Assembly (NCBI GenBank): GCA_009268125.1
Contig: WBOU01000003.1
Coordinates: 62,001 to 126,000 of the forward strand
Source of the DNA: Chloroflexia bacterium SDU3-3
GTDB lineage: Bacteria; Chloroflexota; Chloroflexia; Chloroflexales; Roseiflexaceae
DNA: 64,000 bases
Reading direction: 5' to 3'
Under the pieces are notes generated by a model that did no database searches, was not told the DNA's origin, and saw only the letters and a program-made list of their open reading frames with translations. The translations under genes were made by a program, and so were the position numbers. Shown here in pieces: positions 4,073-64,000 of the stretch. How positions within the stretch are numbered: position 1 is the stretch's first letter; every line of letters begins with the position of its first letter.

Positions 4073-4315
4073 CTAGCCGATCATGCTGCCCGGGTCGGCG
4101 GGCGGCATCACCGGCACCTCCGAGAGTCCCGCCGCCTTGGCAGCCTCGATTCGGCGGCGCAGATCCCACAGCCGCTCGATCTCGGCCTTGATCGCCGCCA
4201 GGCGCGGGTGCTCCTCCTCGGTCACCTGGTCATCCTCGTAGATCTGCAGCCGCTCGCGCTCCAGCTCGATGATCTGGGCCACCACCTGCGCAATCGCGCT
4301 ATCAAAATCGCTCAT
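4073..4315 (-). CDS. Small helical DUF2630-like protein
   Basis: An 80-residue protein made almost wholly of charged amphipathic helix. Its ERERLQ ... EEEHPRLAAIKAEIERLWDLRRRIEAA pattern resembles DUF2630, a short actinobacterial/Chloroflexota family with a conserved 'L-x-WDLLRxRRA' core. A good Shine-Dalgarno (AGGAAGG) precedes the ATG. Function unknown; the helix suggests dimerisation or a role as a small adaptor. The family assignment rests on the WDL-RRR pattern only. Confidence 0.6.
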   Translation of the reverse strand: MSDFDSAIAQVVAQIIELERERLQIYEDDQVTEEEHPRLAAIKAEIERLWDLRRRIEAAKAAGLSEVPVMPPADPGSMIG

Positions 4316-4479
4316 CGCCTTCCTCGTATCCTTTCCTCAGCGGTCATCGGCGCACGCCCGCGCGGCAGCCCCCGCACCGCTACAGCCAGAACCGGGCCAC
4401 AGATCCCCGCCGTGCAACCTTGGCCCGCGCCCAGCCGTCGTACCGACAGCAAAACGAGCAAGAGCAAAGGACAGCCCCC

Positions 4480-5151
4480 ATGATCGCACTCGATCAGCCA
4501 ACCGCCCGCCACTGCCGCCGCTGCGACACCCGCCTGCCCAACGGCGCGCAGTTCTGCGTGGTCTGCGGCAGCGCCTACGCCGCCACCGAGCCGCAGCAGG
4601 CCGCCGCCGAGCCGCAGCGCCAGACCGCTGCGGCGGTGGCATGCCCCACATGCGGGGCCGCCAACCCCACCAGCGCGGGCTTCTGCGTGAGCTGCGGGCG
4701 CGGGATGCACATACCGCCCGCCGCGCCCGGCTATGGCTACACGCCCGCCATGGTCAACAATACCAATATCTATGTCACCAACGCCATCACGCCGCAGCAG
4801 CCCCTGATCATCCGGGCGCTCTGGTTCTTGTTCATCGGGCTGTGGCTTGGCCCGCTGTGGATCGTGGCGGGCTGGCTGCTCAACCTGACAATTATCGGCA
4901 TGCCCCTAGGGCTGTGGATGCTCAACCACACCGGCACGGTGATGACGCTGCAGCAGCGCTCGCCCCGCGTGCCCGCTGGCTCGACGCTGGGGCTGCTGGC
5001 GCGGGCGATCTACTTCGTGCTGATCGGCTGGTGGGCCAGCCTAGTCTGGCTGGCGCTGGCCTGGGCCATGGCCGCCAGCGTGATCGGCCTGCCCGTGGCC
5101 TTCCTGATGTTCGACCGCGTGGGCACTGTCACCACCATGGATGAGATCTAG
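4480..5151 (+). CDS. Double zinc-ribbon protein with two YccF-type membrane modules
   Basis: A 223-residue protein. Two four-cysteine zinc ribbons (C12/C15/C26/C29 and C55/C58/C69/C72) are separated by a Gln/Ala-rich linker. The C-terminal half holds two copies of the YccF (inner membrane component) pattern: IRALWFLFIGLWLGPLWIVA ... TIIGMPLGLWML and a second AIYFVLIGWWASLVW ... VIGLPVAFLMF. Four membrane helices are expected, with the ribbons probably cytoplasmic. The start at 4480 is preferred over 4420 because AAAGGA lies just upstream and the ribbon begins right after. The stop overlaps that of the convergent kinase gene within CTAG. Role unknown. Confidence 0.8.
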   Translation: MIALDQPTARHCRRCDTRLPNGAQFCVVCGSAYAATEPQQAAAEPQRQTAAAVACPTCGAANPTSAGFCVSCGRGMHIPPAAPGYGYTPAMVNNTNIYVTNAITPQQPLIIRALWFLFIGLWLGPLWIVAGWLLNLTIIGMPLGLWMLNHTGTVMTLQQRSPRVPAGSTLGLLARAIYFVLIGWWASLVWLALAWAMAASVIGLPVAFLMFDRVGTVTTMDEI

Positions 5152-5954
5152 CCTGCGCGGATCAGCGTACCCTCGCCCTGCGCCCTGCCCAGCAGGGCGC
5201 GGGCCAGCAGCCCAGGCGCGCTGCCGATCAGGTGCACCTCCAGCGCCGGGTTCTGCTCGATCAGCTGCCACATCAGGGCCACCTTGCCGCGCATGCCGCC
5301 GGTCACATCCACGCCGTGCGACCCGCCCGCCAGCGCCAGCACCTCGCCGATATTGGCGCGGGTGATCTGCGGGATGCGCTCGGCGACGGGGTTGGCGCGC
5401 GGGTCGGCGGTGTAGACGCCCGACTCGCCCACCAGCACCACGCGGGCCGGGGCCAGCGCCGTATCGGCGGCCAGCGCCACCAGCAGCTGCTCGGTGGAGA
5501 TGATCGCCGAGCCTTGCGCGGCGTCAAACGCCACGTCGCCGTGCACCACCGGCACCAGCCCCCTGGCCAGCGCCCGCCCGAGCGCGCCGGTATCCCACCG
5601 CGTGAGGGTGCCCGCCTCGGCCTGCGCCGTGGCCGAGGGCTGCAGCGACAGCGCGGGCACGCCCGCCGCCAGCAGCGCATCCACCACGATCCGGTTCAGG
5701 CGCAGCGCCGCCGCCGAGGTCAGCGCGTAGCCCAGCCAGTCGCCGCCGTCGGCGATGCCGGTGTGCACGCCGTAGCGCTTGGCATACACGTGGCCATACG
5801 AGCCGCTGCCGTGGCCCAGCACCAGCGGCCCCGCGCCCGCATCCAGCGCCTGGCGCAGCTCGGCGGCCAGCTGGGCGATCATGGGCAGATCCGGCGTCTC
5901 GGGCTGGGTCTTGTCGGTGATCACCGAGCCGCCAAACTTCACAAATGTGCGCAT
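5148..5954 (-). CDS. Isopentenyl phosphate kinase (amino-acid kinase fold)
   Basis: Predicted to phosphorylate isopentenyl phosphate to isopentenyl diphosphate with ATP, the last step of the alternative (archaeal-type) mevalonate route. The 268-residue sequence begins with the KFGGS phosphate-binding lysine/glycine loop (6-10). It carries the IPK hallmark GHGSGSYGH (47-55), whose final His is the residue known to contact the substrate phosphate and to separate IPKs from other amino-acid kinases. VLVGESGVYTADPR and DVTGGMRGKV supply the nucleotide-binding half. It lies 12 nt downstream of the UbiA gene, so the two are probably co-transcribed. IPK genes are known in some Chloroflexota. Confidence 0.88.
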   Translation of the reverse strand: MRTFVKFGGSVITDKTQPETPDLPMIAQLAAELRQALDAGAGPLVLGHGSGSYGHVYAKRYGVHTGIADGGDWLGYALTSAAALRLNRIVVDALLAAGVPALSLQPSATAQAEAGTLTRWDTGALGRALARGLVPVVHGDVAFDAAQGSAIISTEQLLVALAADTALAPARVVLVGESGVYTADPRANPVAERIPQITRANIGEVLALAGGSHGVDVTGGMRGKVALMWQLIEQNPALEVHLIGSAPGLLARALLGRAQGEGTLIRAG

Positions 5955-5966
5955 CGCAGCCCCACC

Positions 5967-6965
5967 CTAGCGCGAAAACAGCGGCGCGAGCACCAGCAGC
6001 GCCATCGACAGCACGCCCCACAGCACCAGCGAGATGGTGAACGGGCGGTCGCCGATCACGATGTCCGCCGGGTTGCCGCCGCCGCCCTTCTTGTAGATCA
6101 GGTAGAGATAGCGGAAAATCGCGTAGACCACCAGCGGCACCGTGAACAGCATCACCGAGAAGCCGCCGTGGGTTTTGGGCAGTGTGGGCGAGGACGTGGT
6201 GAAGAAGGTGTAGGCCACGATGATCGCCGCCGTCACGATCGACATCATCTGGTCGAGCATGGGCAGCGAGTACTCCTGCAGGATCTTGCGGTGCTCGCCC
6301 GCGCCGCCCTCCAGCAGCACCAGCTCGGCGCGGCGCTTGGCGAAGGCCAGGAACAGCGACAGCAGACCCATGCACACCAGCAGCCACTCGGTGATCTGGA
6401 TGTCGAGCACCATCGCGCCCGCGATCGCCCGCAGCACAAAACCAGCGGCGATCGTAAACACATCCAGCAGCACCACATTTTTCAGATAGTATGAGTAGAG
6501 AATGCCCTGGATCACCATGTAGCTGAGCAGCACCACGCCAAAGTCGATCTGGTGCCACCACGGCTGGGCATCGCCCTGCCAGCTCACCCAGATGGCATCC
6601 AGCGCGAAGGCCGAAGGGATGGCCACGCACAGAAACACCACCGCCGCCACCTTGGCCACCGTGGGGCTGAGCCGCCCCGAGGCCAGCGGGCGGTTGCGCT
6701 TCTTGGGGTGCGCGCGGTCCTTCTCGATATCCACCAGGTCGTTGATCAGGTAGATCGAGCCTGCGACCATACAGAACAGCAAGAATGCGGCGATAACAAT
6801 CGCCACCGCAACAGGGTTCATCCAGAGTCGGCCCGAGGAAAAAGCGATCGCCGCGAAAACGAAGACGTTCTTGATCCAGTCTTTCGGGCGCATCGCCAGA
6901 AGCAGCTCTTTCGCCACCGCAGCGCCCTGCGCGCGGTTCGATTCAAGCTCTGCTGAGTGTGCCAT
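5967..6965 (-). CDS. UbiA-family prenyltransferase, decaprenyl-phosphate phosphoribosyltransferase-like
   Basis: A 332-residue polytopic membrane enzyme that transfers to or from a polyprenyl chain. Helix-1 entry MRPKDWIKNVFVFAA, first Asp-rich motif NDLVDIEKDRAHPKKRNRP (75-93) and a C-terminal NPADIVIGDRPF match the phosphoribosyltransferase branch (5-phosphoribosyl-1-diphosphate:decaprenyl-phosphate type) better than quinone-pathway UbiA. About eight to nine hydrophobic helices are present. Start 6965 (MAHSAEL) is preferred over 7040. Pairing with isopentenyl phosphate kinase supports polyprenyl metabolism; the true acceptor could be another sugar donor or an aromatic ring. Confidence 0.8.
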   Translation of the reverse strand: MAHSAELESNRAQGAAVAKELLLAMRPKDWIKNVFVFAAIAFSSGRLWMNPVAVAIVIAAFLLFCMVAGSIYLINDLVDIEKDRAHPKKRNRPLASGRLSPTVAKVAAVVFLCVAIPSAFALDAIWVSWQGDAQPWWHQIDFGVVLLSYMVIQGILYSYYLKNVVLLDVFTIAAGFVLRAIAGAMVLDIQITEWLLVCMGLLSLFLAFAKRRAELVLLEGGAGEHRKILQEYSLPMLDQMMSIVTAAIIVAYTFFTTSSPTLPKTHGGFSVMLFTVPLVVYAIFRYLYLIYKKGGGGNPADIVIGDRPFTISLVLWGVLSMALLVLAPLFSR

Positions 6966-7106
6966 AGATATTTGTGCCCTTATGATTGTGACGCTCGGTG
7001 AAATCGGCTCCATTCTACCTGAGCGCCCATACCGCGTCAACAGTTGACAGCGCCCGCAAAAACCGCTACTCTGCCGGGCGTCATATTCACAACCGCGAGG
7101 ACACCT

Positions 7107-7709
7107 GTGGAAGACACGACTCCCATCCCGCTCGCCGCCGACGCCGAGCCGATCAAGACAGCGCCCAAAGCGGCGTTTCCGTGGCGCTCGGTGCTGCTGG
7201 TGGCAGGCACCATCGCGCTTACTGTTGCCCTGGCCTTTATCCCCAAAGGGTTTCTTGAAAGCCTGGGCAACTATGGCTATATCGGCCTGTTTGTCTTCAC
7301 GCTGCTCTCTAGCGCCACGCTAGTGCTGCCATCGCCTGCCATTGGGCTCAGCTTCGTGGCGGGCAGCACGCTGAACCCATGGCTGGTGGGCATTATCAGC
7401 GGCGTGGCGGCTGCGCTGGGCGAGATCACCGGCTATATGGCGGGTATAGGCGGGAATGCATTCGCCCAACGAACCACGTTCTACACCACGATCGAGCGCT
7501 TTGTCCGCCGCTGGGGCATGCTCACGATCTTTGTGCTGGCGATCATCCCCAGCCCGCTCTTCGACTTCGCGGGCATCGCCGCAGGCACCATGCGCATGCC
7601 ATTCTGGCGCTATCTGGCCGCGTGTCTGGCCGGCAAGACGCTGCGCTTCATCGGCATCGCCTGGCTGGGCAGGCTGGCCCCCGATCTGATCCATATGTTC
7701 GTTCAATAA
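7107..7709 (+). CDS. VTT-domain (DedA/SNARE-associated type) membrane protein
   Basis: A 200-residue integral membrane protein. A polar N-terminus (about 27 residues) precedes a hydrophobic helix. The VTT-like core then has a re-entrant loop LSSATLVLPSPAIGLSFVAGS, the GEITGYMAGIGG helix and a C-terminal FDFAGIAAGTMRMPFWRYLAACLAGK motif. DedA/VTT proteins include flippases of polyprenyl phosphate and phospholipids. The start is set at GTG 7107 because GAGGA lies about 7 nt upstream; the longer frame to 7044 would overlap the upstream promoter region. It is 24 nt ahead of rdgB and probably co-transcribed. Confidence 0.75.
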   Translation: MEDTTPIPLAADAEPIKTAPKAAFPWRSVLLVAGTIALTVALAFIPKGFLESLGNYGYIGLFVFTLLSSATLVLPSPAIGLSFVAGSTLNPWLVGIISGVAAALGEITGYMAGIGGNAFAQRTTFYTTIERFVRRWGMLTIFVLAIIPSPLFDFAGIAAGTMRMPFWRYLAACLAGKTLRFIGIAWLGRLAPDLIHMFVQ

Positions 7710-7733
7710 CCAAGGCAAATGAGGTAGAAACCC

Positions 7734-8348
7734 ATGCAGACGCTGCTTATCGCCACCACCAATCTCCACAAGCTCGAAGAGTACAGCGCGATCTTCGCGG
7801 GTCTGCCCGTCGCGCTGCGCTCGCTGCGCGATGTCGGCATCAGCGACGATGTGGAGGAAACCGGCACCACCTTCGCGGCCAACGCCCAGCTCAAGGCCGA
7901 ATACTACGCCCAGCGCAGCGGCCTGGCCACCCTGGCCGACGACTCGGGGCTAGAGGTGGCGGCGCTGGGCGGCGACCCAGGCGTGCGCTCGGCCCGCTAT
8001 GCTGGCCCCGGCGCGACCGACGCCGACCGCATCAACCTGCTGCTCAAGAACCTGGCCAGCGTGCCCTTCCACGAGCGGCTGGCCCGCTTCGTGTGCGCCA
8101 TCGCCATCACCAGGCCGGGCGGCCCCATCGAGCTGGTGGAGGGCACGGTCTCGGGCGTGATCGAGAACGAGCCGCGCGGCAGCTTCGGCTTTGGCTACGA
8201 CCCGGTGTTCTACGTGCTGGATGAGAACAAGACCATGGCCGAGCTGCCGCCCGAGCGCAAGAACCAGATCAGCCACCGCGCCGTCGCATCCAAGGGCGCG
8301 CGCGAGATCATCGAGCGCTGGCTGGCCGAGGGCAAGCTCGACGCCTGA
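7734..8348 (+). CDS. rdgB: RdgB/HAM1 non-canonical purine NTP pyrophosphatase
   Basis: Hydrolyses ITP, dITP and XTP to the monophosphate, cleaning the nucleotide pool. The 204-residue sequence has the family order: TTNLHKLEEY (8-17), substrate loop DDSGLEV (69-75, catalytic Asp), FGFGYDPVF, and the C-terminal SHRAVASKGA motif. GAGGTA sits upstream of the ATG. It follows the VTT gene on the same strand. Two hairpins lie past its stop codon. Confidence 0.95.
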   Translation: MQTLLIATTNLHKLEEYSAIFAGLPVALRSLRDVGISDDVEETGTTFAANAQLKAEYYAQRSGLATLADDSGLEVAALGGDPGVRSARYAGPGATDADRINLLLKNLASVPFHERLARFVCAIAITRPGGPIELVEGTVSGVIENEPRGSFGFGYDPVFYVLDENKTMAELPPERKNQISHRAVASKGAREIIERWLAEGKLDA

Positions 8349-8357
8349 CACCAATTA

Positions 8358-8416
8358 GTCGGGGGTTCCTCGTATGTCGACCCGACGCCCGTAGCTCCCG
8401 TTAGGAGGCTGCGGGC
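8358..8416 (+). terminator. Double hairpin downstream of rdgB
   Basis: First stem GTCGGG (8358-8363) / CCCGAC (8381-8386). Second stem GCCCGTAGC (8387-8395) / GCTGCGGGC (8408-8416), nine pairs counting one G-U. They abut with no gap. There is no U-tract (GATTCC follows), so this may be a processing or attenuation structure ahead of pepF rather than a plain terminator. Confidence 0.4.
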
Positions 8417-8502
8417 GATTCCATTCCTATTCATGTGCTGGAGGCGTCACCACTATGATTCTTTGAGCGGCCAACACCGCTCGTAATAAAAGGAGTAGCC
8501 CT

Positions 8503-61859: not shown

Positions 61860-64000
61860 CTAGGGCTGCGGCGGCCCTGGCACCTCGGGCTGGGGCGCGC
61901 CGCCGTCGGCGGGGGGCTGCGGGCCGCCCTCGACGGGAAGCTGCGGCAGCGCGCCGCCGTCGGCGGGGGCGGGCGTGGGCGCGGGCTGGCCGCCCTCGAC
62001 GGGAGCAGGTGTGGGCTGGCCACCGTCGGCAGGCGCAGGCGTGGGCGCGGGCTGGCCGCCATCGGCGGGCAGCGGCGTGGATGTCACCGAGCCGGGCGGG
62101 CCAGCGCCCACGGGCGTCTCGGTCGGGCCTGCCGGGGCCGCATCATCCGGCGCACGCACGCCCAGGATGATGAACTCGTCGGGCTGCACCCAGGTGTTGG
62201 CGGCGGGCATCGAGCTGACCACCGCGTAGGCCGGGAACTTGTCGTAGTCGTCGGGGATCTGGCTGCGATCCTGGTACTGCACGAAGATCATGCCGGTGTT
62301 GAAGCCCAGCGCGGCCAGCTTCTCCTTGGCCTGATTCTCGCCGAACCCGCGCAGGTCGGGCATGCGCACCGAGCCAGGCGGCGCGACCGAGTAGATCATA
62401 TCGGATGTGCAGTCGGGGATGGAGCCAGCGCCCACCGCGCCGCCCGCGCTGCCGCCCTGCCAGACATACTGGACCTTCTCGTCCTTGCTGGGCTTGGGGG
62501 TCTTCCAGACCGTGATCGTGGTGATCATGTCGCCGGGCACGTTCACACCATCGACCACGCGGCAGTAGTTGGCGCTAGATTTCTCCTCGGTCTCACCGGC
62601 ATCATTCACCACCTGGGTGGTGGTCTGGCCCAGCTTAGCGACCGTCATCTTGGCGAAGGAGTTGCAGCCGAACTGATCCGCCAGGATATCGTCCTCGGGC
62701 GAGGAGGTGGCGGTGGTGGCGGGCGTGCCGAAGAACATGCCGTCGCCTGCAGTGGCGGTGGCGGCGGCGCTGGTGCGCTTCTTGAGCATATCGGGCGAGA
62801 ACAGCTCCTCGCCGTAGTAGTTGAACGGGCCGGGCAGCTTGCAGATCTGCTTGCGCACGATGTCGCTGGGCAGCGTAAAGCTGGTGGGCAGCTTGCCGCC
62901 ATAGGGTGCGGCCAGCTCCTGCTGGAAGCGGGCATCGGCGAAGATCGCCTCCATCACATCGTGCCAGATCGCGCCGCCGCTGGTCACGCTCTCGACCTTG
63001 GCGGTCGGCTCGTTGTTGTTGTTGCCCGTCCACACGCCCACAGTGACATAGGGCGTGAAGCCCACGGCCCAGGCGTCGCGCCAATCGTTGGTGGTGCCGG
63101 TCTTCACGGCGGCGGGGCGCGAGAGCCTGAGCTTGCTCTGGGTGGTGAATACCGGGGCGCGCGCGGCGTTGTCGGCCAGCATGTCGGTGATGATCGCCAC
63201 GTGGTCGGGGTTCAGCACCTGCTCGCCAGCGGTGGGCGGCGTGGCCACCTTCTCGGGGTCGAAGCTCTCCACGCTCTGGGCCGCCGTGGGCGTGAACTGC
63301 TCTAGCACCTCGCCGCGCGAGTTGACCACCTTGAGCACGGCCACCGGCGGGTAGTAGTGGCCCTGCGAGGCCAGGGTGTTGTAGGCCGTGGTCAGGTCGA
63401 GCGGCGTCACCTCGCCGCCGCCCAGGGTGAGCGAGAGGCCGTAGAAGCCCTCGCCGCGCTGCAGGCCGGTGATGCCCGCGCGGTGCAGCAGATCGAGGGT
63501 ATGATCCAGCCCTGCGAACTTGAGCGCCTTGACGGCGGGCATGTTCAGCGAGTTGGCCAGGGCGGTGCGGGTGCGCAGCGGGCCGTTCCAGCGCCCGTTG
63601 TAGTTCTCGGGGGCGTAGGCATCTAGCCCGCCCAGAAACTCGGTGGGCACATCCCACCACACTGTGGCTGGGGTCGCGCCCTTCTCCATGGCCGAGAGAT
63701 AGGTGAAGGGCTTGAGGGCCGAGCCGGGCTGGCGCTCGCGGGTGGCCACGTTCACCTGGCCATCCAGCACATTGCCGGTCTGGCCCCGGGTGGTGGAAGC
63801 CTTGGTGGCGTTATAGTCGATGCTGCCGACCATGGCCAGCACCTGCCCGGTGTTGGGCTGCATCACCACCACGGCGGCGTTGTGGATGTTGCGCTCGGCC
63901 AGCTCCTGGATGCGGTCCTTGGCCTTCTCCTGCACCATGTGCTGCATGTTCAGATCGAGCGAGGTGTAGATCGACAGGCCCTCGTTGGCGAACTGCTGGC
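61860..64000 (-). CDS. Class A penicillin-binding protein, C-terminal part (5' end beyond window)
   Basis: Transpeptidase region of a bifunctional peptidoglycan synthase; the frame stays open to 64000 (QQFANEGLSIYTSLDLN before the first in-window Met at 63947), so the transglycosylase half lies outside. Visible: SALK in PGSALKPF (catalytic Ser), SLN in ALANSLNMPAVKAL, KTG in AAVKTGTTNDWRDAWAVG, and a PASTA-like domain (VRMPDLRGFGENQAKEKLAALGF). A long Pro/Gly/Ala tail then repeats ADGGQPAPTPAP. The tail could span the thick wall or mediate protein contacts. A strong terminator follows. Confidence 0.92.
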   Translation of the reverse strand, partial: QQFANEGLSIYTSLDLNMQHMVQEKAKDRIQELAERNIHNAAVVVMQPNTGQVLAMVGSIDYNATKASTTRGQTGNVLDGQVNVATRERQPGSALKPFTYLSAMEKGATPATVWWDVPTEFLGGLDAYAPENYNGRWNGPLRTRTALANSLNMPAVKALKFAGLDHTLDLLHRAGITGLQRGEGFYGLSLTLGGGEVTPLDLTTAYNTLASQGHYYPPVAVLKVVNSRGEVLEQFTPTAAQSVESFDPEKVATPPTAGEQVLNPDHVAIITDMLADNAARAPVFTTQSKLRLSRPAAVKTGTTNDWRDAWAVGFTPYVTVGVWTGNNNNEPTAKVESVTSGGAIWHDVMEAIFADARFQQELAAPYGGKLPTSFTLPSDIVRKQICKLPGPFNYYGEELFSPDMLKKRTSAAATATAGDGMFFGTPATTATSSPEDDILADQFGCNSFAKMTVAKLGQTTTQVVNDAGETEEKSSANYCRVVDGVNVPGDMITTITVWKTPKPSKDEKVQYVWQGGSAGGAVGAGSIPDCTSDMIYSVAPPGSVRMPDLRGFGENQAKEKLAALGFNTGMIFVQYQDRSQIPDDYDKFPAYAVVSSMPAANTWVQPDEFIILGVRAPDDAAPAGPTETPVGAGPPGSVTSTPLPADGGQPAPTPAPADGGQPTPAPVEGGQPAPTPAPADGGALPQLPVEGGPQPPADGGAPQPEVPGPPQP

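Follow-up and report, generated by a model that had tools for sequence, protein, structure and literature searches.

Why does the gene for an isopentenyl phosphate kinase (IPK) directly follow a gene for a UbiA-superfamily enzyme, rather than lying with the mevalonate genes? The locus that raises this question belongs to Chloroflexia bacterium SDU3-3 (NCBI GenBank assembly GCA_009268125.1) and lies in a stretch of 64,000 nucleotides, here called the window, which covers positions 62,001 to 126,000 of the forward strand of contig WBOU01000003.1. UbiA (5967..6965) comes first and IPK (5148..5954) second, both on the minus strand, with 12 bp from the UbiA stop codon to the IPK ATG; the order and adjacency given in an initial annotation, made from the letters alone, are thus correct. 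We computed the identities of the genes, their catalytic residues, the gene content of the pathway and the conserved adjacency, and on these we base predictions of substrates, co-transcription and the fate of the lipid-linked ribose. The account that we consider very probable is that the two genes form a unit in which IPK finishes the alternative mevalonate pathway and UbiA transfers phosphoribose to polyprenyl phosphate, and that the pair is kept mainly for co-expression.

The kinase and its probable pathway

The kinase is a protein of 268 amino acids. In an NCBIfam profile search it scored 152.7 bits with the isopentenyl phosphate kinase model NF040647 (cut-off 120); it was also matched by Pfam AA_kinase, and the top six of its 16 matches in the PDB are all named IPK. 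Eleven IPK residues are given as highly conserved in the available text of Dellas et al. 2013 (PMC3857490), the catalytic histidine (H60 of M. jannaschii) among them. With the correspondence established by eye, all 11 are present in the window kinase (K5, G7, G8, K14, G48, H54, P134, G138, D215, T217 and G218), and all 11 are invariant across a ten-sequence alignment. The nearest named IPK locus, at 83%, is labelled Roseiflexaceae (L066), the label from which we take the family name for the window. These data confirm that the protein belongs to the IPK family, as initially annotated, and predict activity on isopentenyl phosphate.

The mevalonate genes lie elsewhere in the genome, consistent with the claim of the initial annotation that IPK stands apart from them. 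Because they are scattered over contigs 2, 3, 7 and 12, with only HMG-CoA reductase (HMGR) and HMG-CoA synthase (HMGS) together, an IPK without mevalonate neighbours is usual for this genome. A search of the genome for GHMP domains returned four genes: a heptose-kinase-like gene (below cut-off even with its best model, NF049969), a galactokinase (assigned by eye), a mevalonate kinase (MVK; TIGR00549, above cut-off) and a decarboxylase of the diphosphomevalonate decarboxylase (MDD) family (G000:C2:166726-167766). None of the four is a phosphomevalonate kinase (PMK) or IspE, an absence subject to the sensitivity of the search, and a profile search of the genome found no IspH. The choice between mevalonate and methylerythritol phosphate (MEP) genes, which the initial annotation had raised, is therefore answered in favour of mevalonate. 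HMGR and a type-2 isopentenyl diphosphate (IPP) isomerase are present, and a match to archaeal-type HMGS starts 225 bp past the HMGR match. These two genes lie side by side (G000:C12:105187-107544), and the upper pathway thus also includes an archaeal-type enzyme.

Since the other genes of the alternative mevalonate pathway are present and IspH was not found, IPK is the sole IPP-finishing enzyme found in the genome. In pathway order, the enzymes would be archaeal-type HMGS and HMGR, MVK, phosphomevalonate decarboxylase, IPK and type-2 isomerase, with IPK converting isopentenyl phosphate to IPP in the last ATP-using step. There is precedent in Roseiflexus castenholzii, whose IPK and decarboxylase (MPD) were assayed and, as a pair, named the alternative mevalonate pathway, according to the accessible part of Dellas et al. 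2013 (PMC3857490). We conclude that the genome belongs with users of this pathway, and that what looked like an odd IPK is probably a routine core enzyme rather than a salvage oddity.

The UbiA protein

The UbiA gene encodes 332 amino acids from its ATG. Its product exceeded the cut-offs of two NCBIfam models for decaprenyl-phosphate phosphoribosyltransferase, NF008977 (247 bits; cut-off 234) and NF008978 (217 bits; cut-off 207). A third model of the same name, NF008976, gave 154 bits, below its cut-off of 474, and NF006088 ('UbiA family prenyltransferase') gave 148 bits, below its cut-off of 351, with only the C-terminal part of the model matched; the next model after these four scored 41 bits. 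Pfam assigned a single domain, PF01040 (63 bits). The only two PDB matches, 8j8j and 8j8k, are decaprenyl-phosphate phosphoribosyltransferase, 8j8j being the M. tuberculosis enzyme.

The available text on that enzyme, Rv3806c (PMC10994848), names 12 residues for phosphoribosyl pyrophosphate (PRPP) and Mg2+: Arg22, Lys28, Tyr70, Asn73, Asp77, Lys87, Arg90, Gln135, Tyr138, Lys143, Tyr157 and Lys208. These map, in that order, to R26, K32, Y72, N75, D79, K89, R92, Q153, Y157, K162, F176 and K227 of the window UbiA, so that 11 of 12, counted by hand in the 8j8j alignment, are identical and only Tyr157 is replaced (F176). In the same portion of the source (PMC10994848), Phe is said to occur at the Tyr157 position in some mycobacteria, and the phosphoribose site to be absent from ordinary UbiA enzymes, though Asn73, Asp77 and Tyr138 are common to both. 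Across 18 UbiA relatives drawn from mevalonate and MEP lineages, 10 of the 12 columns are invariant, equivalent to nine of the 11 identical positions; Q153 is kept in 11 of the 18 and K227 is variable.

The genome has a separate MenA (L178; TIGR00751, 227 bits, cut-off 102) and a separate heme O synthase gene. MenA models gave no match to the window UbiA at E ≤ 0.001 in the NCBIfam search, and on the family models we reject its being MenA; the grouping with menaquinone enzymes that would have spoken against the initial annotation was not seen. Because the PRPP and Mg2+ residues are retained to this extent and the genome has its own MenA, we take the protein to be most likely a polyprenyl-phosphate phosphoribosyltransferase (DPPRS/PPPRS type) acting on the substrates that this name implies, and the decaprenyl-phosphate phosphoribosyltransferase type first assigned to it stands. 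Both proteins of the pair are new members of known families. In open-licence PubMed Central, we found no literature on decaprenyl-phosphate phosphoribosyltransferase in Chloroflexi, and a shallow look there found no description of an IPK-UbiA pairing.

Conservation of the pair

We surveyed 150 genomes of the class. IPK matches at E ≤ 0.001 occurred in 80, of which 68 had a clear IPK (E of 3.7e-30 or better); the 12 weaker ones (best 5.2e-11) were dropped as other amino-acid kinases. For adjacency, the IPK places of the 68 genomes were compared with UbiA places in the genomes of the order and in G005, second and weaker matches being excluded. UbiA lies upstream of IPK on the same strand in 51 of the 54 IPK-bearing genomes of two families (f1 and f2), and in none of 14 in three others (f3, f4 and f9). 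Over the 51 genomes the median gap between the two matches is 47 bp, and in 49 of them the gap is 5 to 227 bp. As for the three non-adjacent genomes of f1 and f2, G074 and G117 have IPK near a contig end and no UbiA found, and G143 is 71% complete, with the two genes on two contigs.

Among 80 named loci, 45 are linked (including Roseiflexus, Chloroflexus, Oscillochloris, Viridilinea and Chloroploca). In 29 others, which include Herpetosiphon, Anaerolineae and Caldilineae, 1.5 kb or more of upstream sequence shows no link, and six end too early to tell. In a midpoint-rooted IPK tree, from which the 175-residue fragment L109 was excluded, the linked IPKs form one group that also holds one unlinked and three contig-edge loci. 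This suggests that the pairing likely arose once, a view that is likely rather than proven because support for the linked clade is 0.605 under midpoint rooting. Two loci bear unexpected labels. L090, from a metagenome-assembled genome labelled Candidatus Gracilibacteria, has a Chloroflexaceae-like IPK inside the linked clade and no UbiA within 1.7 kb upstream; L095, labelled Thermoflexus (a label taken as given, and outside f1 and f2), carries the linked pair. Both are likely binning or naming errors.

The pair sits inside a larger block. In 34 of 42 linked named loci with room, RdgB lies divergently and no more than 1.2 kb from UbiA, and SpoIIM lies downstream in 22 of 36 such loci; the genes after IPK differ between f1 and f2. 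In one f4 genome (L052), UbiA stands beside VTT and RdgB without IPK, an arrangement suggesting that the pairing came later than this part of the block.

Do the two genes depend on each other?

UbiA matches were found in 136 of the 150 genomes, in one (G130) only at E 5.6e-4. They occur in 66 of 68 genomes with IPK and in 70 of 82 without it. The class is divided, mostly along order lines, between HMGR (mevalonate; 74 of 150) and IspH (MEP; 70 of 150); both occur in G016 and, IspH being a fragment, in G143, and neither in eight genomes. HMGR accompanies IPK in 66 of 68 genomes, and the fragment in G143 is the only IspH match among the 68. Outside the order, HMGR was seen in G005 and G016. UbiA is independent of IPK, because 63 of the 69 genomes that have IspH and no IPK carry it. 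Hence, IPK tracks the mevalonate pathway and UbiA tracks neither pathway.

We propose that the two genes would have been neighbours since the line leading to Roseiflexaceae- and Chloroflexaceae-like families, with UbiA having no need of IPK, and that joint expression would link the step that forms IPP to an enzyme that draws on carrier lipid. The pairing is best read as shared expression inside an old gene block, in one line only; functional coupling is possible.

Transcription and neighbouring genes

The 12-bp spacer (5955..5966, minus strand) contains a G-rich GGTGGGG that may be the IPK ribosome-binding site. Upstream of UbiA, a consensus scan found a sigma-70-like site, TTGACG-17-TAGAAT (7012..7040, minus strand; 10 of 12 matches), a candidate promoter of the pair. 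The scan, over 4300-8500, gave four sites against 0.5 expected in shuffles, and the site alone is no evidence of function; it gave no minus-strand site from UbiA to the IPK start. We infer from this layout that UbiA and IPK form a two-gene transcription unit.

Two genes diverge from the pair on the plus strand. One encodes a VTT/DedA-domain membrane protein (7044..7709; Pfam VTT_dom, 47.3 bits), whose true start is possibly further in. Some DedA proteins carry undecaprenyl phosphate across membranes, but a gene of this kind occupies the corresponding place in only five of 42 named linked loci with room. The other encodes the XTP/dITP diphosphatase RdgB/Ham1 (7734..8348; NF011397 and TIGR00042, both above cut-off), which belongs to the old block. 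At the other end, IPK overlaps tail to tail by four bases with a convergent zinc-ribbon/YccF gene (4420-5151, plus strand). The palindrome CTAG at 5148-5151 supplies the stop codons of both genes, leaving no space for a terminator between them.

Weighing the explanations

Several observations weigh against the proposed account. A weak terminator-like site with five pairs lies near the end of the UbiA gene, ahead of IPK (5995..5982, minus strand), in a scanned region that gave four such sites against 2.0 expected, and in two of the 51 adjacent genomes the UbiA-IPK gap is 813 and 844 bp. HMGR occurs in eight genomes that lack a clear IPK, seven of them in the order (72-94% complete) and one, G016, outside it. 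The common-type HMGS (PF08540) was not found in the genome, though the archaeal type is present, and no downstream glycosyltransferase for a ribose donor was identified. NCBIfam files the decarboxylase as diphosphomevalonate decarboxylase (TIGR01240, 237 bits; cut-off 171), and the phosphomevalonate decarboxylase model NF040704 gave 165 bits, below its cut-off of 475. The available text of Dellas et al. 2013 (PMC3857490) sets out six active-site positions, and at four of them the mono- and diphospho kinds of decarboxylase are unlike; of these four, compared by eye in the alignment, three (Ile27, Ser139 and Ser192) are MDD-like and one (Lys21, Val30 here) is unlike MDD.

Both serines are also retained in the Anaerolinea phosphomevalonate decarboxylase. 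The best PDB match of the decarboxylase is 6n0x (294 bits), the next distinct enzyme scoring 168 bits; 6n0x is phosphomevalonate decarboxylase from A. thermophila in complex with mevalonate 5-phosphate, as described in the accessible part of its report (PMC9254496). The genome's decarboxylase is therefore closest to the Anaerolinea enzyme, with mevalonate 5-phosphate as its presumed substrate. The 150 genomes hold two lineages of MDD-family decarboxylase, 55-79% and 32-38% identical to that of the window genome, and most of f1 and f2 have the 32-38% lineage. Within one order the lineages switch between genera of a single family, for example G084 and G117 against most of f2.

Different roles for the two enzymes have also to be considered. 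Salvage roles are suggested by the IPKs of plants and of other organisms whose classical pathways are complete, and the initial annotation had likewise proposed that this IPK may recycle isoprenoid monophosphates. It would then add phosphate back to isopentenyl or longer prenyl monophosphates that phosphatases release, the main supply of IPP coming by another route, and its position next to a consumer of polyprenyl phosphate would suit such a role. However, no other complete route was found, there being no IspH, and no IspE or PMK among the four GHMP genes, and IPK occurs with HMGR in 66 of 68 genomes; with the other alternative mevalonate genes present, we regard recycling as improbable. That UbiA is a conventional aromatic or glycerol-phosphate prenyltransferase, using prenyl diphosphate supplied through IPK, is scarcely credible: its two best models, at 247 and 217 bits, are phosphoribosyltransferases over cut-off, the PRPP-binding residues are retained and MenA and heme O synthase have genes of their own, despite its membership of the UbiA superfamily (PF01040, 63 bits) and the 148 bits, below the cut-off of 351, with NF006088.

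The main rival is that the two genes stay side by side as a frozen accident: one clade would have inherited the arrangement, and selection for joint expression would play no part in it. We consider this unlikely, but a serious contender. It draws on the larger block around the pair (RdgB in 34 of 42 loci, SpoIIM in 22 of 36), in which no further gene has an obvious link to isoprenoids, and on the presence of UbiA in 70 of 82 genomes without IPK. Against it, 51 of the 54 genomes in the two families preserve order and strand, 49 of them with short gaps, and the genes that follow IPK differ between these families. We therefore prefer a pair that is kept mainly for co-expression.

Proposed fate of the predicted lipid-linked ribose

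IPP would be built into polyprenyl phosphate, to which UbiA would add 5-phosphoribose from PRPP to give polyprenyl-phosphoryl-5-phosphoribose; this is presumably dephosphorylated and could then act outside the membrane as a lipid-linked donor of pentose. UbiA would in this way channel both PRPP and carrier lipid into lipid-linked ribose. In the available part of Kelly et al. 2024 (PMC11127046), an enzyme of this class produces polyprenyl-phosphate ribose that is used to add pentofuranose outside the cytoplasm, and by analogy the UbiA product may be the same. Service to polyprenyl-phosphate sugar synthesis, suggested by the initial annotation, fits UbiA, but IPK would then feed all isoprenoids and not only that branch.

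A DprE1-type oxidase (PF04030 C-terminal domain) had no match in the genome, which makes arabinose less likely than ribose and led us to reject DprE1 as the next step after UbiA. The C. glutamicum genome, used as a control, gave a PF04030 match, its cut-off status not being displayed; 41 of the 150 class genomes have the domain, a count that takes DprE1 and other oxidases together. No flippase or GT-C gene was seen among the neighbouring genes looked at, which were only part Pfam-scanned, with no genome-wide search. A general glycan cluster around UbiA was rejected from neighbourhoods, part Pfam-scanned, in 17 other genomes. Single UbiA loci of f3, f6, f7, f9 and f11 share no common gene beside UbiA; farther from UbiA, the f11 locus has Lon and one further gene in common with f10 loci. 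In all four f10 loci (L054, L055, L059 and L061), UbiA follows a gene for a DUF4015 putative glycosyl hydrolase, just past which lies a polyprenyl diphosphate synthase gene on the opposite strand, a second isoprenoid-gene neighbourhood for UbiA.

If the UbiA activity is real, a ribose or pentose glycan or glycolipid would be widespread among Chloroflexota, in mevalonate and MEP lineages alike. A bolder extension, which we offer tentatively and regard as doubtful, is that the class Chloroflexia keeps a near-universal, DprE1-independent polyprenyl-phosphate-ribose route feeding a surface or lipid glycan, and that in the Roseiflexaceae/Chloroflexaceae line UbiA was joined in an operon with IPK, tuning the supply of IPP and carrier lipid to glycan demand.

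Comparison with known systems

The three-component pentofuranose systems, as far as they are described in the accessible text of Kelly et al. 2024 (PMC11127046), include a polyprenyl phosphoribofuranose synthase that resembles the window UbiA in enzyme class and in its expected product, polyprenyl-phosphate ribose. Unlike that synthase, the window UbiA, with its one Pfam domain, has no fused HAD phosphatase domain, and no MATE flippase or GT-C gene was noticed among its part-scanned neighbours. M. tuberculosis Rv3806c (8j8j), to the extent covered by the available text (PMC10994848), shares the family models and 11 of the 12 PRPP and Mg2+ residues. In contrast to the mycobacterial system, the window UbiA was not seen within an arabinan gene cluster and no DprE1-type gene was found in the genome, so arabinose formation in the mycobacterial style is unsupported.

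The alternative mevalonate pathway of Roseiflexus castenholzii, a related organism, is the third point of comparison. The decarboxylase of the window genome belongs to a second lineage: it is nearer to the Anaerolinea enzyme and shares 33-37% identity with the decarboxylases of the single-contig genomes G040, G042, G048 and G060. The two agree, judging from the part of the source available (PMC3857490), in that MVK, HMGR and an MDD-family decarboxylase are present, PMK and MEP genes were not found, and IPK carries the same conserved residues.

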